This document shows positions 51,760-63,177 of a DNA stretch of 64,000 nucleotides, piece after piece. Made by a program: the position numbers and the translations under genes. This DNA is from Microbacterium halophytorum (GTDB taxonomy: Bacteria > Actinomycetota > Actinomycetes > Actinomycetales > Microbacteriaceae): contig NZ_PNFA01000005.1 in NCBI RefSeq assembly GCF_002970975.1, forward strand, positions 124,001 to 188,000, written 5' to 3'. The notes beneath the pieces are model-generated. The model saw only the letters and a program-made list of their open reading frames with translations, was not told where the DNA came from and made no database searches. Numbering within the stretch: the stretch's first letter is position 1; each line of letters begins with the position of its first letter.

Positions 51760-52761
51760 TCAGCGGTTGCTGAAGGCGGAGTCGAACGCCGCCTGGGGCG
51801 GCGTGATCGCGTTCAGCTTCCGGACGAAGCCGATCGCCTCGGCCGCGCCCTGGAGGCGGTCCATGCCCGCATCCTCCCATTCGACGCTCGTGGGGCCGTC
51901 GTAGCCGATCGCGTTCAGCGCGCGGAACAGCGGCTCCCACGGAACCTCGCCGTGGCCCGTCGACACGAACGTCCATCCGCGGCGCGGGTCCGCCCACGGC
52001 AGGTGCGACCCGAGCACGCCGTTGCGCCCGTCGAGGGCCGTCACCGACTCCTTCACGTGCACGTGGTAGATCTTCTCGGCGAAGTCGAGCACGAAGGGAA
52101 CCGGGTTCAGCTGCTGCCACATGAAGTGCGACGGGTCGAAGTTGAGCCCGAATCCGGGGCGGTCGCCGATCGCCTCCAGGGTGCGCTTCGCGGTCCAGTA
52201 GTCGTACGCGATCTCCGACGGATGCACCTCGAGCGCGAAGCGGACGCCGTTCTCCTCGAACACGTCGATGATCGGGCTCCACCGGTCGGCGAAGTCCTGA
52301 TACCCCGCCTCGATGACGTCCTCGCCGACGGGCGGGAACATCGCGACGTACTTCCAGATCGACGACCCCGTGAACCCGGTGACGGTCTTCACGCCGAGCT
52401 TCGCCGCGAGGCGGGCCGTGTTCTTCAGCTCCTCTGCCGCGCGGCCCCGCACGCCTTCGGGGTCGCCGTCGCCCCACACCTCGGCGGTGAGGATGTCGCG
52501 GTGCCGGAAGTCGATGGGGTCGTCGCAGACGGCCTGGCCGGTGAGGTGGTTCGAGATCGCCCAGACCTTCAGGCCGTTCTCCTCGAGGATCGCCTTCCGG
52601 TCGGCGATGTACGCGTCGTCGTCCCAGCGGGAGGGGTCGAGGTGGTCGCCGCCGCAGGCGATCTCGAGGCCGTCGTAGCCCCACTCGCCCGCGCGGCGAC
52701 AGACCTCCTCGAAGGGCATGTCGCCCCACTGGCCGGTGAACAGAGTGACAGGTCGTGCCAT
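51760..52761 (-). CDS. Sugar phosphate isomerase/epimerase (AP endonuclease 2-type TIM barrel)
   Basis: A 333-residue xylose-isomerase-like TIM barrel (IolE/IolI family). Metal-binding acids and histidines are seen in [29 protein letters not shown] and [16 protein letters not shown] precedes the ATG. It is the last gene of the operon, 20 nt after the Gfo/Idh gene, a common pairing for keto-inositol or keto-sugar metabolism. Substrate unknown. Confidence 0.88.
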
Positions 52762-52781
52762 GATGTGCTCCTTTGCGATGG

Positions 52782-53936
52782 TCAGACGGCGACCCAGCGC
52801 GAGTCGTCCGCGGAACTGGTCTCGACGGCGTCGAGCACGCGCTGCACCTGCGCGCCCTCGTCGAAGGTCGGGGTGGGCTGGTCGCCGGAGGCGATCGCCT
52901 CGACGAGGTCCTTCACCTGGTGACTGAAGCCGTGCTCGTAGCCGAGCATGTGCCCGGCCGGCCACCATCCCGACAGATAGGGGTGGCCGGGCTCCGTCAC
53001 GACGACCCGGGTGAAGCCCTGGTCGAGGTCGTCGGCGGTGCGGTCGTAGACGTGCAGCTCGTTGAGCGACTCGAGGTCGAAGGCGATCGCGCCCTCCGAG
53101 CCCGACACCTCGACCGACAGCTGGTTCTTGCGGCCGGTCGCGAAGCGCGTCGCCTCGAACGAGGCCAGAGCGCCGCCGGAGAGGCGCCCCGTGAAGATCG
53201 CCAGGTCGTCGACCGTCACGTCGCCGTACTCGTCGCCGCCGCGGCCCGCGATGCCGACGCGCTCCGTCTCGATGGGCCGACGCTTCGTGATCGTCTCGAT
53301 CGTTCCCGCGACCTTCTCGACCGTCTGCCCCGTGAGGAACTGGACGAGGTCGACGGCGTGGCCGCCGATGTCGCCGAGCGCCCCCGCACCCGCTTCGTCC
53401 TTCTTCAAGCGCCACGACAAGGGCGCGGCCGGGTCGACCAGCCAGTCCTGCCGGTACGCGGCACGCACCTGCCGCACCTCACCGATGCGGCCGGCGGCGA
53501 TGAGGTCGCGGGCGCGGGTCAGCGCAGGAACGCGCCGGTAGGTGAACCCCAGCATGGCGATGGCGCTCGAGGCCCTGGCCGCCTCCGCCATCCGGTCGGC
53601 ATCGGCGACCGAGTTCGCCAGCGGCTTCTCGCAGAGCACGTGCTTCCCCGCGGCGAGCGCGGCGATCGCGATCTCGTCGTGCGAATGGCCGGGCGTCACG
53701 ATGTCGACGACGTCGATGTCGTCCCTGGCGACGACGTCGCGCCAGTCGGTCGCCGCCTCCTGCCAGCCCCACTTCTCGGCGGCGGCAGCGACTGCCTCCT
53801 CATTGCGGCCGACGATCACGGCCATCTCGATGTCCTTCGGCAGGTCGAACACGCGCGGCGCCGTGCGCCACGCCTGCGAATGCGCCGCCCCCATGAATCC
53901 GTATCCGATGAGTGCGACGCGGAGCTTGTCCGTCAT
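52782..53936 (-). CDS. Gfo/Idh/MocA family oxidoreductase
   Basis: A 384-residue NAD(P)-dependent oxidoreductase: Rossmann motif [22 protein letters not shown] with the catalytic-region Lys, and [13 protein letters not shown] with the active-site Asp/His pair. Relatives act on inositols, sugars and amino-sugars. It is coupled to the idi gene by a 4-nt ATGA overlap and to the sugar isomerase after it. It likely oxidises or reduces the polyol or sugar handled by this operon (inference). Confidence 0.9.
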
Positions 53937-54481
53937 TTTCCTATCCTTTCGCGTGCGCTGAAGATCTGGGGGGACGCGGCCGCCTGCGCGACGAGCCACG
54001 GGCTGACGAGCCGCGGTGCGGCCCTGACCGCCGCCGCGAGGTCGGCCGGGTCCATCCACGCGAACTCCGACACCTCCGCGGGGTTCGGGGCGATCGCCGA
54101 TGCGGCGACGGCGCGGTACACGGGGCAGACCTCGTTCTCGACGATTCCGGATGCATCCGTCGCGCGGTAGCGGAAGTCGGGGTCGACGACCTCGACGTCG
54201 CGCACCTCGAAGCCCAGCTCGGCCTGCGCACGCCGCGCGATGGCCTCGGCGTCCGCCTCGCCCGGCGCCGGATGCCCGCAGAACGCGTTGGTCCACACGC
54301 CCGGCCACGCGCGCTTCGACAGCGACCGCCGCGTCACGAGGACGCGGCCGACGTCGTCGAACACGTGGCAGGAGAACGCCCGGTGCAGGGGCGTCGTGCC
54401 GGTGTGGACGCTCGCCTTCTCCGCCGTGCCGATCTCGCGGCCCGCTTCGTCGAGCAGGACGACGAGCTCCTCCGCGGTCAT
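53933..54481 (-). CDS. idi: Isopentenyl-diphosphate delta-isomerase (type I)
   Basis: A 182-residue Nudix-fold type I IDI. The catalytic Cys region is TNAFCGHP, the Nudix-like helix has RRAQAELGFE, and the catalytic Glu region is VENEVCPVY. It interconverts isopentenyl and dimethylallyl diphosphate. It is embedded in the operon with 4-nt overlaps on both sides, so it is probably devoted to providing the prenyl donor for the UbiA-type enzyme encoded first in the operon. Confidence 0.92.
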   Translation of the reverse strand: MTAEELVVLLDEAGREIGTAEKASVHTGTTPLHRAFSCHVFDDVGRVLVTRRSLSKRAWPGVWTNAFCGHPAPGEADAEAIARRAQAELGFEVRDVEVVDPDFRYRATDASGIVENEVCPVYRAVAASAIAPNPAEVSEFAWMDPADLAAAVRAAPRLVSPWLVAQAAASPQIFSARERIGK

Positions 54482-55887
54482 CGTGCGCCCGCCCGTCCCA
54501 CGACCGCGCCGTGTGCCTGCCGGAGGAGGTCGTGCACCGCCGTCGCGTCGATGCTGTCGGCCCCGTCGGCGATCAGCGAGGGATCGGAGCAGATGATCAG
54601 CGGCGACTCCGCCGCACTGTCGGGCAGGCGGCCGTGAGTCCCCCGCACGTACGACCCGTCGAGCGGGACGGTGCTCATCGCGTAGCGCAGGCCCAGCTTC
54701 TTCTTCACCAGGTTCATCCCCGCCTTGGCCTTCGCCCACGGGTCGGCGGGGTTCATGAACAGTTCGGCCGGGTCGTAGCCGGGCTTCTTGTGGATGTCGA
54801 CCGCCCGCGCGTACTCGGGCGCCCTGGCGTCGTCGAGCCAGAAGTAATAGGTGAACCAGGCGCCGGGCTCGGCCACGGCGACGAGCTCGCCTGCGCGTTC
54901 GTGATCGATGCCGTACGCGGCCTGCTGCTCCCTGTCGAGCACCATGTCGACGCCGGGGAGCGACCGGATGACGTCGGCCGTGCGTGCGATGTCGGACGGA
55001 TCCGAGACGTACACGTGCGCGACCTGGTGGTCGGAGACGGCGAAGGCCCTGGACGCCCACGGGTCGAGCTGCTCCCTGCCCTGCTGCACGTACACCTCGA
55101 GCAGGCCCTCCCGCCGCAGCGCGCGATTGATCTGGACCGGGCGATCGGCGCCGGTGATGCCGTACTCGGAGAGCGCGACGACGGTCATGCCCATCCCCTC
55201 GGCGTCATCGAGGAGCGGCGCGAGCGCCGCGTCGAGCTCGGCGGCCGCCGCGGCCGACTCCGGCGCGTCCGGCCCGAACTTCTGGTGCGCGTAGTCCAGG
55301 TGCGGGAGATAGACCATCGTGAGGTCGTTCTCGTCGTCGCTCCAGCGGTGCGAGAGGAGCCCGCGAGCGCTGGCGATGAGCCATTCGCTCGAGGCGATCG
55401 ATGCCGTCGGCCCCCAATACTGGAACAGGGGGAACTCGCCGAACGCGCCGACGAGCTGGTCGTGCAGCCACGCGGGCCGCACGTACGCATCCGGGCTCTT
55501 GCGGCCGTCGGCGTGGTAGATCGGCCGAGGGGTGACGACGACGTCGGTCGCGGCCCCCATCGCGTACCACCAGCCGACGTTCGCGACGCGGTAATCGCCG
55601 TCGCGGCGCATCGTGTCCCAGATCTTGTCCGCCGTCACCAGAGCGTTGTGCTGGCGCCAGAGCAGCGCGTCGCCGAGGCCGCGGAAGTACCACCCGTTGC
55701 CCACGATCCCGTGGTCGCGCGGCATGCGCCCCGTCAGGATCGTCGACTGCACGCTGCACGTCACGGCGGGCAGGATCGTGTTCATCCGCGCCTGCCGCCC
55801 CCGCTCCGCGACCGCGCGCAGCCGCGGCATCTGCGCGAGCGCGCCCTGCGTGAGCCCGACGACGTCGAGCAGGAGCACCTTCTTCAT
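54478..55887 (-). CDS. EboF-type nucleotide pyrophosphatase/phosphodiesterase (alkaline phosphatase superfamily)
   Basis: A 469-residue metal-dependent phosphodiesterase-family protein. The nucleophile region is LPAVTCSVQSTILTG, typical of type I phosphodiesterase/NPP enzymes, with a metal-binding DVVGLT at the N-terminus and MVYLPHLDYAHQKFG and VALSEYGI further on. There is no signal peptide, so it is cytosolic. Position after eboE and the family match EboF of ebo clusters. Role: probable hydrolysis of a phosphodiester or pyrophosphate intermediate. Confidence 0.85.
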   Translation of the reverse strand: MKKVLLLDVVGLTQGALAQMPRLRAVAERGRQARMNTILPAVTCSVQSTILTGRMPRDHGIVGNGWYFRGLGDALLWRQHNALVTADKIWDTMRRDGDYRVANVGWWYAMGAATDVVVTPRPIYHADGRKSPDAYVRPAWLHDQLVGAFGEFPLFQYWGPTASIASSEWLIASARGLLSHRWSDDENDLTMVYLPHLDYAHQKFGPDAPESAAAAAELDAALAPLLDDAEGMGMTVVALSEYGITGADRPVQINRALRREGLLEVYVQQGREQLDPWASRAFAVSDHQVAHVYVSDPSDIARTADVIRSLPGVDMVLDREQQAAYGIDHERAGELVAVAEPGAWFTYYFWLDDARAPEYARAVDIHKKPGYDPAELFMNPADPWAKAKAGMNLVKKKLGLRYAMSTVPLDGSYVRGTHGRLPDSAAESPLIICSDPSLIADGADSIDATAVHDLLRQAHGAVVGRAGAR

Positions 55888-57032
55888 CGCGCCCCCTCTC
55901 CGCTGGCGACGGGCATGTCGACGGGGAGCTCGCGCGCCGCCCAGCGCACCTCGCCCGCGATGCCGTCTGCGAGCGTCGCCGGCTGCATCTCGGCGGGCAG
56001 CACCGTCCACGTGTACGTCTCGATGTCGAGGTGCGCTTCCGCGCCGTGCTCGGTCTCGAGCACCGCGGCGACGGCCTCGCGCAGGACATGCTGCGTCGAG
56101 GCGAGCGGCGCCGCCGGCGTGAGGTGCAGCGGGATGTGCACGTGCACGCGCCACGGCCGATCGTGCGGCCACTCGTGGTCGGCGAGGACGTCGACGAGGT
56201 CGTCGGCGCGCAGCGCCTCCCCCGCGGCCGGATCGGTGCGGACCTGGTGCAGGTAGCGCGCTTCGGCGAACGGGGCGAGCGCCTCGGCCGCGGCGCTAGG
56301 GTCGGGGACCTCGAGCGCGGCGGAGGCCTGCACCTTCACGACCCGCACCCCGGCTTCCTCGATCCGCCGCACGGCGGCGGCGGGGTCGGCGTACGACACG
56401 GCGAGGTGGCAGGTGTCGAGGCACACGCCGATGCGGCCGTCGGCCGTGAGCTCCGGATGCGCCGCGAGCCAGTCGACGACGTCGTCCACGTCGTCGAGGA
56501 TGCACCCCGGCTCGGGCTCGACGGCGATCCGCACGCTCCGGCCCGTCTCGCGCTCGATCGCGGCCAGGTGGTCGTGAAGGGACCGCAGGCGGGACGCGGC
56601 CGCCGCGTCCCGCTCGGGCGTCCAGCCGTCCCGCCAGCCCAGCGGCAGCGTGGAGATGCTCCCCGACTCCCCTTCGGGCAGGAGGAGGGCGAGCGCGGTC
56701 GCGCAGTCCTTCGTGAACTCCAGGCGCTCGTCGCTCGTCCAGTCCGGCGAGTAGACGCCGAGCTTGACGACGTCGTCGTGGAAGCCGCGGTACGGGAAGG
56801 CGTTCACGGTGAACAGCTCGAGACCCTCCGCATCGAGCGCCGCCGCGAGCCTCGCCCGCGCGTCGGCGTCCTCGGCGAGCTGAGCGGCCGCGTCGACCGG
56901 CAGCCACAGCCCGACGCCGAGGCGCCCCAGGCCGGATGCGCGGCGGGCGGGCCCGGCGTGCTCGTGGAGCTGGGCGATGATCCCGTCGACGTCCTCCGCA
57001 GGGTGCGCATTCGTGCAGTACGACAGCCGCAT
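55884..57032 (-). CDS. eboE: Metabolite traffic protein EboE
   Basis: A 382-residue TIM-barrel protein beginning MRLSYCTNAHPAEDVDGI, characteristic of EboE. Other conserved parts are ELFTVNAFPYRGFH, VAVEPEPGCIL, GVCLDTCHLAV and HIPLHLTP. It is related to xylose-isomerase-type barrels but much diverged. EboE belongs to the ebo operon described in cyanobacteria, eustigmatophyte plastids and other bacteria and linked to movement or making of small metabolites such as scytonemin precursors. ATGA overlap with the next gene. Confidence 0.88.
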   Translation of the reverse strand: MRLSYCTNAHPAEDVDGIIAQLHEHAGPARRASGLGRLGVGLWLPVDAAAQLAEDADARARLAAALDAEGLELFTVNAFPYRGFHDDVVKLGVYSPDWTSDERLEFTKDCATALALLLPEGESGSISTLPLGWRDGWTPERDAAAASRLRSLHDHLAAIERETGRSVRIAVEPEPGCILDDVDDVVDWLAAHPELTADGRIGVCLDTCHLAVSYADPAAAVRRIEEAGVRVVKVQASAALEVPDPSAAAEALAPFAEARYLHQVRTDPAAGEALRADDLVDVLADHEWPHDRPWRVHVHIPLHLTPAAPLASTQHVLREAVAAVLETEHGAEAHLDIETYTWTVLPAEMQPATLADGIAGEVRWAARELPVDMPVASGEGAR

Positions 57033-57033
57033 C

Positions 57034-57927
57034 TCACGCCCCCTTCGCCGCGGGAGCGCCCCGCAGGATCGAGTTCCCGGAGAAGGTCTCGCTCGGCGGC
57101 GCCGCCGCGTCGAAACCGGGCACCGGTTCGAGGTTCAGGCGCCCGCTCTGCCCGTAGAAGGCCACGGGGTTGCGCCAGAGCACGCGATCGACGTCGTCCT
57201 CCGAGAACCCGGCCGCGAGCATCGCCCTGCCGGTCTTCAGCGTCTTGAGCGGGTCCGAGCGGCCCCAGTCGGCCGCCGAGTTGACGAGCACCCTGTCGAG
57301 GCCGATGCGGCCGATGATGTCGACCATGCGCCGTTCGTCCATCTTCGTGTCCGGGTAGATCGAGAAGCCCATCCATGCGCCCGTCTCGCGGACCATGTCG
57401 ACGGTCATCTCGTTCAGGTGGTCGACGAGCACCGCCTCGGCCGGTACGCCGGACTCGCGCACGACGTCGAGGGTTCGCCGCGTCCCGCTCTCCTTGTCGC
57501 GGTGCGGCGTGTGCACCATCACGGGCAGTTGGAACTCGAGCGAGAGCGCGAGGTGCTGCGCGAGGACCTCGTCCTCATCCGGCGTCATCGAGTCGTATCC
57601 CGTCTCGCCGATCGCGACCACGCCATCCTTGCGGAGGTAGCGCGGCAGCTCCGTCATCACCTCGCGGCAGCGCGGGTCGTTCGCCTCCTTCGGATTCAGA
57701 GCGATGGTGCAGTGGTGCCGGATGCCGAACTGGCTGGCGCGGAACCTCTCCCACCCGATGAGGGCGTCGAAGTAGTCGACGAAGCTCGCCACCGATGTCC
57801 GCGGCTGGCCGAGCCAGAACGCGGGCTCGACGAGGGCGCGCACGCCCGCGTCGTACATGGCCTCGTAGTCGTCGGTCGTGCGGGACTGCATGTGGATGTG
57901 GGGGTCGAAGATGCGCATGCCGGTCAC
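57034..57927 (-). CDS. EboB-type TatD family metal-dependent hydrolase
   Basis: A 297-residue amidohydrolase-like TatD protein. Metal sites are DPHIHM, the GETGYD Glu, MVHTPH and DHLNEMT; NSAADWG gives the last Asp. GTG 57927 overlaps the previous stop as GTGA and has GGGGGC close upstream; ATG 57918 is an alternative. It starts one base before eboE's region and belongs to the same operon. In ebo clusters this TatD protein is EboB; its substrate is unknown and need not be DNA. Confidence 0.86.
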   Translation of the reverse strand: MTGMRIFDPHIHMQSRTTDDYEAMYDAGVRALVEPAFWLGQPRTSVASFVDYFDALIGWERFRASQFGIRHHCTIALNPKEANDPRCREVMTELPRYLRKDGVVAIGETGYDSMTPDEDEVLAQHLALSLEFQLPVMVHTPHRDKESGTRRTLDVVRESGVPAEAVLVDHLNEMTVDMVRETGAWMGFSIYPDTKMDERRMVDIIGRIGLDRVLVNSAADWGRSDPLKTLKTGRAMLAAGFSEDDVDRVLWRNPVAFYGQSGRLNLEPVPGFDAAAPPSETFSGNSILRGAPAAKGA

Positions 57928-59333
57928 TTCGCCCCCTCGGCCGCGCCGATCAGGGCGAGGTCGTCGGGGATCGCTCGGCCCGCCGCCCGGCGCTCGGCGG
58001 CGAAGCGCTCCGCCATCGCGGCGAGCTCGGCGTCGCGGCGCTCGGCGAGCCCGGCGACCTGCGCGAGCGGTGCCTCCATGAACACGAGCTTCAGCACGCC
58101 CTGGCGCCACGCGGCGTCCCCCAGGTGCCGGAGCGCGAACGCGCCCATCGCCGCGCCGACGAGGCGCGGGTCGTTCGTCCGCAGCGCATCGGTGACGATC
58201 TCCAACCCCGCGCCGCGCCACGCAACTCCGCCGGCGTCGGCCGCGTCGGACAGCCCCTGCAGCACCGCCAGCCGCTCGTCGGCGTCGCCATGGCGATAGA
58301 GCTCGAGGGCCGCCGCGGGGCCGCCCGGATGCTCGGCGAGCTCCCGCACGAGCGCCGCGCGTGCGCGCCGCGCCGGCTCGCCGCGCCCGACGGCGCGGAC
58401 CGCGTCGGCGAACCGGTCGGCGGCGACAGACGGGTCCGCGGCCACCTCGATGCGCGCCGCCGCCGTCCACGGCTCCTGGTCGGTTTCGCCGAGCCGGCGC
58501 ATGGCCGCGAGGCTCTCGCGGGCGCGCTGGGGGGCCTCGCCCGTGTGCCGCGGCAGCTCGACGGCGGCGATGCCGGAGAACCCCGTCTCGTCGATCGCGG
58601 CGAACGTCGCCGCGAGGTCGAGGTCGCCCTCCCCCAGCGGGAGGTGCTCGTGCCGCCCCTGGGGCATGTCGTCGACGTGCACGTTGAAGAGCAGCTCGCC
58701 GGCCGCCCGGATGGCGCCGACGGCGCCTCCCGGTTCGTCGACGGCGATCGCGTGCCCGATGTCGATCGTGACGCCCAGGTTCGCCGGGTCGCCGACCAGC
58801 TCGCGCCAGCGCAGCACCTGCGCGACGGTCTCGACGATCATCCCCGGTTCGGGCTCGATCGCGATGCGGACGCCGGCTTCGCGGGCCTTCTCCACGAGCG
58901 GGCGCATCCGCTCGGCGAGGCGGCGCCAGCCCTCCTCCTCGCTGACGCCGTCGGGCAGCGCACCGCTCCACGTCGACACGCAGTCGGCGCCGACGATCTC
59001 GGCGATCTCGATCGCGCGCTCGACGAGCGCCGTGCGCGGCGTCGCGTCGTCCGACGCGAACGACGGCGAGAAGGGCACGAACGGGTCGAGCAGATACGGC
59101 GCGCCCGTCTCGATGGCGATGCGGAAGCCCCGCCGGGAGAGGTCGTCGGCGAGCGCCAGCGCGTCTTCGCGCCAGCTCTCGGCGAAGGGATCGAAGTGCG
59201 CGGGGCCGAGCGTGAGGCCGACGGCGCCGTAGCCGGCGGCCTGCATCACGTCGAGCGCGTCCGACAGCGTGTGCTCCGTGAAACCGTTCGTTCCGTATGC
59301 GGGCACCCACGCCGATGCGGGGTTGGGGCTCAT
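57924..59333 (-). CDS. Sugar isomerase-like TIM barrel fused to an EboA domain
   Basis: A 469-residue fusion. Residues 1-290 form a xylose-isomerase-type barrel (GAVGLTLGPAHFDPF, IAIEPEPGMIV, TIDIGHAIAV, HVDDMPQGRHEH, VELPRH). Residues about 300-469 match EboA: RHLGDAAWRQGVLKLVF, GLAERRDAELAAMAERFAAE and RRAAGRAIPDDLALIG. EboA is normally a separate protein of unknown function. AAGGAGAT upstream of ATG; the start overlaps eboC by 4 nt. The fusion links EboA physically with sugar or cyclitol isomerisation. Confidence 0.85.
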   Translation of the reverse strand: MSPNPASAWVPAYGTNGFTEHTLSDALDVMQAAGYGAVGLTLGPAHFDPFAESWREDALALADDLSRRGFRIAIETGAPYLLDPFVPFSPSFASDDATPRTALVERAIEIAEIVGADCVSTWSGALPDGVSEEEGWRRLAERMRPLVEKAREAGVRIAIEPEPGMIVETVAQVLRWRELVGDPANLGVTIDIGHAIAVDEPGGAVGAIRAAGELLFNVHVDDMPQGRHEHLPLGEGDLDLAATFAAIDETGFSGIAAVELPRHTGEAPQRARESLAAMRRLGETDQEPWTAAARIEVAADPSVAADRFADAVRAVGRGEPARRARAALVRELAEHPGGPAAALELYRHGDADERLAVLQGLSDAADAGGVAWRGAGLEIVTDALRTNDPRLVGAAMGAFALRHLGDAAWRQGVLKLVFMEAPLAQVAGLAERRDAELAAMAERFAAERRAAGRAIPDDLALIGAAEGAK

Positions 59334-60202
59334 GTCACATCTCCTTGCTTCTTCCGGGCCGCGACGATGCGGCCGAGAGCGGCGAGCCCTGCGAGCAGCA
59401 GGGCACCGCGGGTCGAACCGTGGCCCGCCGCGAACGCCGCCTGCAGCGGGACCATTCCGCGGATGCCGCGCCGCGTCGCGTCGCGGGCGTTGCCCGCCGT
59501 CGGCTCCCTCGCCGCGCGCAGGAAGCCGGGGAGCACCGAGCACACGAACGCGCCGGCGCCGATCACCGCACCGGCCGCACCGCGCGGGCGGCCCAGCCGT
59601 ACGGCGCGGACGACGGCCGTTGCGGCCGCGGCCGTGCTCACGACCGCCGCGAGCACGGCCACGGGGCGCGAGGTGCCGTGCACCTCCCCGCGCGACACCT
59701 GCGTCACGGCGAAGGTGTGGCCCGCGATCGCGGCCGCCGGTGCCGCGGCGCCGCGCCAACCGTCGGCCGCCGCTCCCATCGCGACGTCGAGGCCGCGGCA
59801 GGCGGCCATCGCGGCCGGCCCCAGCGCCGTCTTCTTCGCGACGAGGTCGTAGAACCACACGCAGGCGACGAGCGGCCGCGCGACGCGCAGGGCGCCCGGC
59901 CCGGCCGCGGCGGCCGAGGCGAGCCCGCCCGCGCTGAGCCCAGCCGCCGTCGTGAGCGCCGCCCCCGGCGACACGCGACCGGACGGGATCGGCCGCTCCG
60001 GGCGCTCGATCGCGTCGAGCTCCGCGTCGGCGAAGTCGTTCAGCGCCATGCCCGCCGCGTAGAACCCGGCCGACGCGGCGGATGCGGCAGCTCCCTCCGC
60101 CCCGATGCGGCCGTCGGCGGCCGTCGCCCCGACGACGCCGTCGCCGAAGACCGTGAGCACGGCGGGCGCCCTGACGAGCTCGAGCAGGTCTCTGACGCGC
60201 AT
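59330..60202 (-). CDS. eboC: EboC-type UbiA family prenyltransferase
   Basis: A 290-residue membrane prenyltransferase with about eight hydrophobic segments. The first Asp-rich motif is NDFADAELDAIERPERPIPSG (first about ten residues are the metal site), and the second region is reduced to RGLDVAMGAA. Such actinobacterial proteins are grouped with EboC. GGAAGGA precedes the ATG. It is the first gene of the operon and would transfer a prenyl group to an unknown acceptor, using diphosphate supplied through the idi product encoded downstream. Confidence 0.87.
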   Translation of the reverse strand: MRVRDLLELVRAPAVLTVFGDGVVGATAADGRIGAEGAAASAASAGFYAAGMALNDFADAELDAIERPERPIPSGRVSPGAALTTAAGLSAGGLASAAAAGPGALRVARPLVACVWFYDLVAKKTALGPAAMAACRGLDVAMGAAADGWRGAAAPAAAIAGHTFAVTQVSRGEVHGTSRPVAVLAAVVSTAAAATAVVRAVRLGRPRGAAGAVIGAGAFVCSVLPGFLRAAREPTAGNARDATRRGIRGMVPLQAAFAAGHGSTRGALLLAGLAALGRIVAARKKQGDVT

Positions 60203-60311
60203 CTGAAGTCCTTCCTCCGCGCCGGTGCGGATGCGACGGAGCACCGGCCCCGGCGCGCGGCGCGGCGGGATCGGCTCCGGTCGCGCCCCTGCCACGGGCG
60301 CTCGGTAGTGC

Positions 60312-60341
60312 GGTGGCCCCGCCGATGCCGACGGGGCCACC
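60312..60341 (-). terminator. Hairpin between the ABC binding protein and the ebo-like operon
   Basis: A perfect 10-bp stem (60312-60321 with 60332-60341) with a 10-nt loop, 8 nt past the binding-protein stop. It could terminate or partly attenuate transcription into eboC. Confidence 0.65.
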
Positions 60342-60349
60342 TGGAGCGA

Positions 60350-61402
60350 TCAGGACTGGAAGGCCTGGTCGTAGTACTCGTCGACGTTGTCGGCGGTCAC
60401 GACCGGTGCGTCCAGCACGATCCGCCTGGGCACGCCCGCCGAGCTGAGGTCGCTCATCGACTTGCCCTGCGCCAGCAGGCGCGCGAGCTCGATGCCGTCG
60501 GCAGCCTGCGTGTACGGGTAGATGATCGTCGCCTCGACGACGCTCTCCGGGTCCCGGATCTCGTCCATCATGTTCTGGCTGCCTGCGCCGCCGACCAGGA
60601 TGAACTCGTCGCGGCCCGCGTTGTCGATGGCCGCCAGGACGCCGATGCCCTGGTCGTCGTCGTGGTTCCAGATGGCGTCGAAGTGGTCGTTCGCCGCGAG
60701 CAGCTTCGTCGTCTCCTCCTCGCCGCCGGCGACGGTGAAGTCCGTCGCGACGCGCGCGTCGACGTCGAGGTCGCATTCGGCGAGCGCTTCCTCGAAGCCC
60801 TGCGAGCGGTCCTGCGTCAGCGGCAGCGAGTCGATACCGGCGATCTCACCGATCACGGCGTCCTCGACGCCCTCCATCTGCTCGCAGATGTGCTGGCCGG
60901 CCGCCACGCCCATCCCGTAGTTGTCGCCGAGGATCGTGACGCGCGAGGCATCGGGGTCCGAGAACTCGCGGTCGACGTTGACGACGGGGATGCCCGCCGC
61001 CATGGCCTCGAGCGCAACGGGCGTGAGCGCCGCGCCGTCGGTCGGCAGCATGACGATGACGTCGACGCCCTCGTTGATGAACTGCTCGACGGCCGCGATC
61101 TGCTGGTTGGCGTCGTTCGTCCCCTCCGCCTGGCGGAGTTCGACGTCGTCGAAGCCCTCGGCCGTTTCGATGGCCGCCGAGCTGATGGAACCGAGCCAGC
61201 CGTGGTTGACCTCGGGGCCCGACCAGCCGATGACGACCGTGTCGCCCGCTTCCTGGTTCTCCTCGCTGGTGGATCCCTGGCCTGCGGTCGGCTCTTCGCC
61301 CTCCGAACCGTCGCTCGTACATCCGGCGAGAAGCCCGATCGCTGCGAGCGACGCGATGCCCGCAAAGACCGCGCTGCGCCTGACCCTGCGTCGTGCCTGC
61401 AT
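60350..61402 (-). CDS. Sugar/cyclitol-type ABC transporter substrate-binding lipoprotein
   Basis: A 350-residue Peripla_BP_4 (RbsB/IbpA-like) binding protein with a signal peptide and lipobox (IGLLAGC, Cys about 27). The ligand fold has GTNDANQQIAAVEQFI, DVIVMLPTDGAAL, IPVVNVDREF and DAIWNHDDDQGIG, typical for ribose, inositol or rhizopine binding proteins. A strong AAGGAGGAAT site lies before the ATG. It is divergent from its ATPase/permease genes and points toward the ebo-like operon. Ligand identity is inferred only at the level of sugar or polyol. Confidence 0.9.
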   Translation of the reverse strand: MQARRRVRRSAVFAGIASLAAIGLLAGCTSDGSEGEEPTAGQGSTSEENQEAGDTVVIGWSGPEVNHGWLGSISSAAIETAEGFDDVELRQAEGTNDANQQIAAVEQFINEGVDVIVMLPTDGAALTPVALEAMAAGIPVVNVDREFSDPDASRVTILGDNYGMGVAAGQHICEQMEGVEDAVIGEIAGIDSLPLTQDRSQGFEEALAECDLDVDARVATDFTVAGGEEETTKLLAANDHFDAIWNHDDDQGIGVLAAIDNAGRDEFILVGGAGSQNMMDEIRDPESVVEATIIYPYTQAADGIELARLLAQGKSMSDLSSAGVPRRIVLDAPVVTADNVDEYYDQAFQS

Positions 61403-61656
61403 GATTCCTCCTTGAATGGGTGCAGATAGGCGTCGGGCGTCCTCGCATACAGCGCGTCGCGCCGACAGGGCCGAGGCTAACAGAAGTAACAGCACCGTGT
61501 ACACCTTTTGCATGACCTATGTAAGAAGTTCGCCGCTCCCCCGATCGCGCGCGGGATTCTGCGGCCGCTTGACCACCGCCGTCCGGGCAGCGCCGAGACC
61601 GGACCGTGATCGAGAACCCCCTGGCGCGAAGTTCGGCACCGTGTTATGTTCACTCC
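61403..61656. promoter_or_regulatory. Divergent promoter region of the sugar ABC transporter
   Basis: Contains a repeated 9-mer GCACCGTGT at 61492-61500 and 61636-61644, one near each divergent promoter. The second copy is followed directly by TTATGTT (TATGTT, 61645-61650), a possible -10, seven nt before the GTG at 61657. The short palindrome GTGTACAC at 61498-61505 overlaps the first copy. A shared repressor, for example LacI or ROK type, may bind here (inference). Confidence 0.45.
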
Positions 61657-63177
61657 GTGATCAAAGCTGACCACCAATCGACATTACTTTCCGTCCGCGG
61701 CGTCAAGAAGCGCTTCGGCCCGGTCAAAGCGCTGCGCGGGGTCGACCTCGACGTCGCACCGGGCGAGGTGCACTGCCTTCTGGGCCAGAACGGCGCGGGC
61801 AAGTCGACGCTCATCAAGGTGCTCGCGGGCGTTCATGAGCCGGATGCCGGCGAGCTGCTCTGGCACGGCACGCGCGCCGCGGTCGACGGGCCGCAGTCCG
61901 CCATCGATCTCGGCATCGCGACGATGTACCAGGAGCTCGACGTCGTGGACGGCCTGACCATCGCGGAGAACATCTTCCTCGGGCACGAGCTCGAGCGCGG
62001 CGGCGTGACGAAGCGCAAGGAGCAGACGCAGAAGACGCGCGAGATCCTCGCGCGCCTCGGGCACTCGTCGCTCTCGCCCCATGCGGAGGTCGGCTCCCTG
62101 AGCTCGGCCGAGAAGCAGATCGTGAGCATGGCGCGCGCCCTCTCGCACGACATCGAGCTGATCGTGATGGACGAACCATCGGCCGTTCTCGACAAGGAGG
62201 AGGTCGACAACCTCTTCCGCGTGGTGCACGAACTCACCTCTCAGGGCATCGCCGTCATCTACATCACGCACCGGCTCGAGGAGATCCGCCGCATCGGCGA
62301 CCGCATCACGGTCCTGAAGGACGGCGCGTCGATGGCGAGCAACCTGCCCGTCGCCGACACCCCGACGCCCGAGCTCATCAAGCACATGACGGGCCGCGAG
62401 GTGAAGAACGTGTTCCCCGACCGGCCCGGCGTTCCCGAGGACGCGCCCGTGCTGCTCGAGGTCGACTCGCTCAGCGCGCCCGGCGACTTCGACGATGTGT
62501 CCTTCCGCGTCCGCGCCGGCGAGATCGTCGGCCTCGCCGGCCTCGTCGGGTCAGGGCGCTCCGAGATCGTCGAAGCCGTCTACGGCGCGCGCAAGCCGTC
62601 GTCCGGCAGCGTTTCGGTGCGCGGGAAGAGGCTCGCGGCGGGCTCGGTCCCCGCCGCCGTCGCGGCCGGCCTCGGCCTCAGCCCCGAGGAGCGGAAGTCG
62701 CAGGGCCTGATCCTCGACCAGCCGATCTACCGGAACGTGACCCTCTCGTCGTTCGCATCGATCGCGAGCTCCGGCCTGCTGAACGAGCGCGAGGAGCGCC
62801 GCCTGGCGGACGAGCAGATCGGCGCGCTCGAGCTGCGCCCCGCCGACTCGACGCGCGCCGCCGGCACGCTCTCGGGCGGCAACCAGCAGAAGATCCTGCT
62901 GGCGCGCTGGCTCGTCCACGGCAGCAGCATCCTGCTGCTCGACGAGCCGACGCGCGGCGTCGACGTCGGCGCCAGGGCCGAGATCTACGCGCTCATCCGC
63001 CGCCTCGCCGACGCGGGCAATGCCATCGTCGTGATCTCCAGCGAGATCGAAGAGGTGCTCGGCCTCGCCGACACCGTGCTCGTCATCGGAGACGGGCGCC
63101 TTCTGACCACAGTCGACTCTTCCGAGATCGATGAGCACGGCGTGCTCGATCTCGTCATGAAAGGAACCGCAGCGTGA
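61657..63177 (+). CDS. Sugar ABC transporter ATPase (RbsA/MglA type, two ATPase domains)
   Basis: A 506-residue double ATPase. Domain 1 has Walker A GQNGAGKSTL and a signature changed to SLSSAEKQIV; Walker B is LIVMDEPSAVL. Domain 2 has GLVGSGRSE in place of Walker A, the TLSGGNQQKI signature and LLLLDEPTRGVD. This asymmetry is normal for RbsA-type proteins. GTG at 61657 is the likely start; a -10-like element just upstream suggests a leaderless message. The permease gene overlaps its stop as GTGA. Confidence 0.9.
   Translation: MIKADHQSTLLSVRGVKKRFGPVKALRGVDLDVAPGEVHCLLGQNGAGKSTLIKVLAGVHEPDAGELLWHGTRAAVDGPQSAIDLGIATMYQELDVVDGLTIAENIFLGHELERGGVTKRKEQTQKTREILARLGHSSLSPHAEVGSLSSAEKQIVSMARALSHDIELIVMDEPSAVLDKEEVDNLFRVVHELTSQGIAVIYITHRLEEIRRIGDRITVLKDGASMASNLPVADTPTPELIKHMTGREVKNVFPDRPGVPEDAPVLLEVDSLSAPGDFDDVSFRVRAGEIVGLAGLVGSGRSEIVEAVYGARKPSSGSVSVRGKRLAAGSVPAAVAAGLGLSPEERKSQGLILDQPIYRNVTLSSFASIASSGLLNEREERRLADEQIGALELRPADSTRAAGTLSGGNQQKILLARWLVHGSSILLLDEPTRGVDVGARAEIYALIRRLADAGNAIVVISSEIEEVLGLADTVLVIGDGRLLTTVDSSEIDEHGVLDLVMKGTAA

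Follow-up and report, generated by a model that had tools for sequence, protein, structure and literature searches.

The ebo genes are spread over many phyla, which gives weight to the question of what they make. A locus of the actinobacterium Microbacterium halophytorum (contig NZ_PNFA01000005.1), in which an EboA domain and a sugar-isomerase-like TIM barrel share one reading frame, raises the further question of which step EboA accompanies. We analysed a stretch of 64,000 nucleotides around it, hereafter the window (Table 1). The frame runs from an ATG at 59333 to a TGA ending at 57924 with no internal stop; the first-pass annotation had these limits exactly right and left the minus strand unstated. 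The division that it had proposed, a barrel in residues 1-290 and EboA motifs thereafter, is borne out by two significant profile matches: PF01261 (AP_endonuc_2) covers residues 28-280 (E 1e-42, 147 bits; gathering cut-off 31.1), and NCBIfam NF035938, which models EboA as a domain, covers residues 322-460 (E 2.2e-38, 131.6 bits; cut-off 50). An AlphaFold2 model of the chain is confident (mean pLDDT 94.6, pTM 0.79), and has barrel elements from residue 10 to 282 followed by helices only from 288 to 467. Against the model of the stand-alone EboA family, NF035937, the fusion scores 43.5 bits, under the 320-bit cut-off, and the EboA of Azospirillum likewise reaches just 107.6 bits; the N-terminal barrel scores 17.1 bits against the EboE model NF035939, under its cut-off of 250 bits. 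These results confirm a real two-domain protein, and since 39 of the 176 distinct TIM sequences drawn from 202 loci have the joined form it is no assembly error.

Table 1. Features of the ebo locus in the window (coordinates are window positions; MIPS, myo-inositol-phosphate synthase)
Feature	Coordinates	Strand	Evidence
TIM barrel-EboA fusion, 469 aa	57924..59333	-	ORF, NF035938, PF01261, AlphaFold2 model
TIM barrel part, residues 1-285	58479..59333	-	PF01261 1e-42; conservation
Loop after barrel strand 3, residues 76-97	59043..59108	-	P79, P87, F88; in TIMs beside MIPS R, K, H
EboA part, residues 286-469, all-helical	57927..58478	-	NF035938 2.2e-38; model pLDDT 94.1
Sugar-type ABC ATPase, divergent from SBP	61606..63177	+	PF00005 4.9e-47; AraG/XylG-like, under cut-offs
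SBP, sugar-type periplasmic binding protein	60350..61402	-	PF13407 3.4e-39
EboC-type UbiA prenyltransferase	59330..60202	-	NF045897 (SCO3242 family) 290.9 bits (cut-off 260)
EboB-type TatD hydrolase	57034..57918	-	PF01026 3.2e-14
EboE	55884..57032	-	NF035939 420.1 bits (cut-off 250)
EboF-type phosphodiesterase/pyrophosphatase	54478..55887	-	PF01663 2.9e-59
Isopentenyl-diphosphate isomerase (Idi)	53933..54481	-	NF002995 254.7 bits (cut-off 127)
OXR, Gfo/Idh/MocA oxidoreductase, levoglucosan-dehydrogenase-like	52782..53936	-	Pfam; NF052479 356.8 bits, under cut-off 650
TIM2, second PF01261 TIM barrel	51760..52761	-	PF01261 3.8e-44

The apparent metal ligands of the barrel reported at first pass are indeed present. 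E160/E162, D191, H219 and E259 are conserved in the alignment and satisfy the four-ligand pattern (Glu, Asp, His or Gln, Glu) of PF01261 isomerases and epimerases; on the strength of this family pattern we take E160 or E162, together with the other three, to be the metal ligands. The third ligand is Gln in nearly all relatives of this TIM, as in the hydroxypyruvate isomerase Hyi, and His in the window and in L030. The fold and the metal site are shared with the ketose 3-epimerases (the D-tagatose 3-epimerase family, UlaE, MJ1311), among which MJ1311 (3wqo_A: Z 31.6, rmsd 2.0, 259 aligned) and UlaE (3cqi_A: Z 28.9, rmsd 2.3, 265 aligned) match the model. However, sequence identity to these enzymes is about 20% and the barrel reaches no equivalog cut-off; its best NCBIfam match, hydroxypyruvate isomerase TIGR03234 (9.4e-12), stands at 44.8 bits against a cut-off of 353.45.

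The fusion itself is already known. A 2016 paper (PMC5133447, section 3.4.4) mentions, in one sentence marked "data not shown", hybrid EboA proteins of Actinobacteria with a C-terminal EboA and an N-terminal xylose-isomerase-like domain; the domain architecture is the same as ours, and the passages on these hybrids give no neighbours, MIPS or residues. We detected EboA domains in 14 of 296, 85 of 394, 48 of 396 and 8 of 249 genomes of overlapping phylum, class, order and family samples, respectively. An EboB search of named genomes gave at least 587 relatives, of which the best 80, all actinobacterial by record title, were taken, and in total 202 actinobacterial ebo loci, the window included, were assembled. 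EboA is encoded in 201 of them and a TIM of the window's type in 187, so that this TIM goes with EboA at 187 of 202 loci. Removal of sequences under 230 aa and of identical TIMs left 176 distinct TIMs, 39 fused to EboA and 137 encoded separately, and in the 14 split loci first examined the two genes adjoin in one constant order; L052, which is the same strain as L036, was left out of the trees and counts. The fusion state changes four times on a quick EboB tree, five times on a careful one and six times on a FastTree tree of the TIM, with the direction of change not fixed. Given the published mention and the recurrence across genome samples and loci, we dropped the idea of a rarity, and with it the first-pass view of an isolated oddity. 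The accompanying statement that EboA is normally a stand-alone protein fits the five of six non-actinobacterial loci that have an EboA (see below). The suggestion that EboA acts with a sugar or cyclitol step has fared better: the TIM accompanies EboA when unfused too, the fusion state flips repeatedly, and the TIM co-varies with MIPS, a family of cyclitol-forming enzymes, as detailed below.

In the window a tight same-strand run encodes, in order, SBP, EboC, the fusion, EboB, EboE, EboF, Idi, OXR and TIM2, with the ABC ATPase gene divergent. The start of EboC was picked by eye within the ORF 59330-60340, and the protein scores 146.8 bits against the EboC equivalog NF035940, under the cut-off of 250. 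The published set eboA, B, C, E and F is thus all present; no profile match to EboD was found in the window, and none to MIPS (PF01658) in the whole genome. Two genus mates have a MIPS 1.7 kb from a fused TIM-EboA. The order MIPS-EboC-fusion-EboB-EboE-EboF is found at three of four named Microbacterium loci (L043-L045), and at the same three the ebo operon adjoins a separate TIM2-OXR-SBP run with a divergent ABC gene. In the window (51760-61402) the genes from EboC to Idi sit between SBP and OXR-TIM2 in one merged, MIPS-less run, which looks as though the ebo set, minus its MIPS, had moved into the sugar-import and oxidoreductase run. OXR occurs at 43, TIM2 at 71 and both at 36 of the 202 loci, so that this levoglucosan-dehydrogenase-like module is associated with ebo loci in different families.

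The absence of EboD is general in Actinobacteria: an EboD profile finds eboD at none of the 202 loci. The profile was built from six non-actinobacterial ebo loci, taken from a set of 51 matching plasmid records in which Streptomyces predominates; all six contain a gene annotated as 3-dehydroquinate synthase and none an ebo-type MIPS. The ebo operon eboA-F of Bacteroidota, Cyanobacteria and Pseudomonadota has EboA, EboB, EboC, EboE and EboF in common with the actinobacterial form, but carries EboD where the latter has a MIPS and the extra TIM. A distinct MIPS subfamily is encoded within 4 kb of 156 of the 176 distinct TIMs; 13 of the first 14 genomes checked had MIPS matches, and in 12 of these one lies no more than about 4 kb from EboA. 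Of the 249 genomes in the family sample, 56 encode a MIPS and six hold the lower-scoring ebo type, in every case at an ebo locus and in five of the six genomes as the sole MIPS. The nearest structure to this type is the Archaeoglobus fulgidus MIPS 1u1i (6.6e-96). Its K274, K278, K306 and K367, which we take to be the catalytic lysines, align with columns that are invariant in 9 of 9 ebo-type sequences, so that the archaeal enzyme and the cyclase neighbouring the TIM in the window's relatives have all four lysine columns in common. The ebo type is far from the actinobacterial mycothiol-type model TIGR03450, which it matches with 29 and 21 bits (cut-off 638). The MIPS family also includes a synthase of a five-membered cyclitol phosphate (6k96). 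A literature search, mostly of open-access papers, found no mention of a MIPS linked with ebo, and both the exchange of EboD for MIPS and the coupling of TIM and MIPS appear to be new.

This coupling is visible in individual residues of the TIM. Every one of the 156 distinct TIMs that have a MIPS within 4 kb keeps R79, K87, H88 and R262, whereas the window has P79, P87 and F88. Of the 12 complete loci whose TIM has no MIPS next to it, 10 also have P79: nine loci of one Streptomyces clade combine it with G262, two of them also having G87, and L257 (genome G950) combines it with F88. The other two are Lentzea loci, in which R79 and the other residues are unchanged; each of their contigs also carries an ebo-type MIPS, 21-23 kb upstream. 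An SBP and ABC genes beside EboC in Lentzea had suggested import in place of synthesis, an idea that we dropped in view of this MIPS. Three MIPS-less lineages (the window, G950 and the Streptomyces clade) have thus lost R79 and at least one other basic residue; R79P arose in all three and F88 in two. Absence of MIPS here refers to the neighbourhood of the TIM: the genome of G950 encodes a canonical MIPS at another site, and all four of the nine clade genomes that were searched have an ebo-type MIPS elsewhere. The window, with 4,679 bases upstream, was counted as an incomplete locus and owes its MIPS-less status to the whole-genome search; seven other incomplete loci, all with R79, were counted on neither side.

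On a FastTree tree of the TIM built without the scored stretches, the three changes of MIPS and the three changes of R79 fall in the same three lineages, all three pairs being concordant. Random placement of three changes by branch length gives 4.6e-6 for this outcome or, multiplied by the 44 conserved columns because R79 was chosen after looking, about 2e-4; a sign test on the three pairs, that is on three independent lineages, gives p 0.25. Of the 44 near-invariant columns of the TIM, 10 differ in one or more of the MIPS-less lineages, compared with 9 of 326 across EboA, EboB, EboC, EboE and EboF (Fisher test 8.7e-6, with columns treated as independent). In leave-one-out analysis TIMs beside a MIPS show 0, 1 or 2 changes in 145, 18 and 2 of 165 rows, respectively, while among those without one the window has 6, G950 4, the Streptomyces clade 4-5 and Lentzea 1. 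The conserved-column and leave-one-out analyses, from which L121 was left out, were run on sequences that were not deduplicated (165-172 rows beside MIPS). EboA, EboB, EboC, EboE and EboF of the MIPS-less loci have changes inside the range of the MIPS-bearing rows. EboF, with 2-3 changes, lies towards the upper part of that range, 149 of 167 MIPS-bearing rows having 0-1, so the TIM does not account for the whole signal. The metal or catalytic candidates E75, E160, E162, D191, H194, H228, H230 and E259 are unchanged in the MIPS-less lineages. The model places R79, K87 and H88 in the loop that follows barrel strand 3, which in a TIM barrel is on the active-site side; their charge and their loss where MIPS is absent suggest that these three residues may bind phosphate. 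Such a TIM is missing from 15 of the 202 loci, seven of which have a MIPS (L092, L094, L199, L201, L229, L233 and L202, the last with a TIM fragment); the TIM is thus not strictly needed where MIPS is present.

EboA itself offers fewer clues. Folded alone, it gives a confident helical model (pLDDT 94.1) with no fold match in Foldseek at E 0.001; its best VIA match is a HEAT stretch of SF3b (Z 11.3, rmsd 4.2, 177 aligned), where the noise limit for helical proteins is about 13. The EboA alignment (A4) has no match among PDB sequences up to E 1, this part of the fusion has no significant match in Pfam, and a fold search with the whole-fusion model returned barrel matches only. Since the domain shows no excess change in leave-one-out analysis where MIPS has been lost, we infer that it is an accessory helical module, a scaffold or regulator of the TIM, rather than a catalyst. 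A TPR-like role in a complex has been proposed for EboA (PMC6282210).

Taken together, these observations lead us to an account to which we would give about an even chance: the fusion is the ring-processing unit of the actinobacterial form of ebo, acting between MIPS and EboC, and in the window it handles an unphosphorylated ring. The MIPS-family cyclase, which occupies the place of EboD, is predicted to form an inositol phosphate. The metal-dependent TIM would isomerise or epimerise this compound, as ring or keto form, with two glutamates passing a proton between them and R79, K87, H88 and R262 gripping the phosphate. The helical EboA module might keep the TIM with the other Ebo proteins, and EboC could then add a prenyl chain to the cyclitol. 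Prenyl-supply genes are found near by: Idi, which in the window may serve this supply, and at L257 a polyprenyl synthetase. The latter gene (L257:11156-12445) is divergent from EboC in the MIPS-less cluster of G950. The window TIM would take its unphosphorylated ring, or a keto-sugar, from the sugar-import and oxidation run; such a substrate is probable because MIPS is gone, the ebo genes lie inside that run, and R79, K87 and H88 are lost. A wider reading, which we offer more tentatively and think less probable than this account, is that the ebo product is a prenylated cyclitol throughout, its ring coming from one of two unrelated cyclases, EboD in most phyla and one of MIPS type in Actinobacteria, with the TIM adapting the inositol route and being repeatedly retuned to an unphosphorylated, imported ring where MIPS was lost (three times by a change of R79 to Pro). 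An isoprenoid-cyclitol product was proposed in PMC5133447 from EboD alone; if MIPS replaces EboD and only the TIM follows MIPS, there would be independent evidence for the cyclitol. It would also give EboA a partner and name a substrate, on the route from glucose 6-phosphate to inositol phosphate, that is commercially available and open to test.

Several other explanations need to be weighed against this one. The TIM may be a lyase or hydratase of 3-keto-sugars like LgdB1 and LgdB2, OXR oxidising a carbon of the ring and the TIM eliminating or adding water, so that the ring is opened or cleaved. The resemblance of OXR to levoglucosan dehydrogenase (356.8 bits, cut-off 650), its presence together with TIM2 at 36 of 202 loci, and the appearance of the 2-hydroxy-3-keto-glucal hydratase 8ro4 at rank 39 of the fold matches would fit this, as would the report, in PMC7676230, that LgdB1, annotated as a sugar phosphate isomerase/epimerase, carries out a beta-elimination. 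But OXR is present at 43 of 202 loci only and absent from most loci with a fused or neighbouring TIM, TIM2 is its likelier partner, and the tracking of MIPS by R79 would be left unexplained; we consider this unlikely. Somewhat less probable still is that the window cluster is decaying, its TIM drifting without function after MIPS was lost. While the window TIM has changed at 6 of 44 near-invariant columns in a genome without MIPS, its candidate metal and catalytic residues are all kept, neither the ORF nor the genes next to it show damage, the remaining five Ebo proteins look normal, and R79P arose in three lineages and F88 in two.

To about the same low degree as decay we credit the view that two genes with coupled translation became fused when the stop codon separating them was lost, and that the fusion has no functional meaning of its own. 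The constant order of adjacent TIM and EboA genes at the 14 split loci that we looked at first, and the minority status of the fused state (39 of 176), would fit such a view; the 4 to 6 changes of state, whose direction is not fixed, fit partners that tolerate or gain from joining. Least probable of all appears to us the possibility that ebo moves metabolites to the periplasm, with TIM-EboA helping to assemble a membrane complex that includes EboC and EboB rather than acting as a biosynthetic enzyme. PMC6282210 reports that Nostoc ebo mutants lack scytonemin and proposes a complex of EboC, EboA and EboB; NCBI names EboE a metabolite traffic protein, and EboA is all-helical. Yet the metal site of the barrel is complete, its substrate-side residues track a cyclase gene, and the best score of EboC is to a prenyltransferase family.

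The ring-processing account has also to be set beside published work on ebo. In vitro, a homologue of EboC transfers a farnesyl group to 8-hydroxyquinoline-2-carboxylic acid (PMC9235831), according to a review E. coli forms indoles by way of the EDB cluster (PMC9655573), and ebo has been tied to the export of scytonemin precursors (PMC6282210). The biochemistry of EboC and EDB points to aromatic substrates, and none of the EboC, EDB and scytonemin results requires a cyclitol.

A few loci are unusual in other ways. L121 (Streptomyces) contains two interleaved ebo clusters with EboA, EboB, EboE and EboF doubled. In Ketogulonicigenium an extra sugar isomerase gene follows EboB, and its product does not match the profile of this TIM. 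At L039 (G485) the cluster is shrunk to EboC, EboA, EboB and EboF, the genome lacking MIPS and the locus both a TIM of the fused type and EboE. Genes for FAD aromatic-ring hydroxylases occur close to EboC at L039 and some 3 kb upstream of it at L116, while at L116 and L035 EboF is followed by a P450; these genes had suggested an aromatic acceptor, an idea that we set aside, and we record them as an oddity of loci without MIPS beside EboC.
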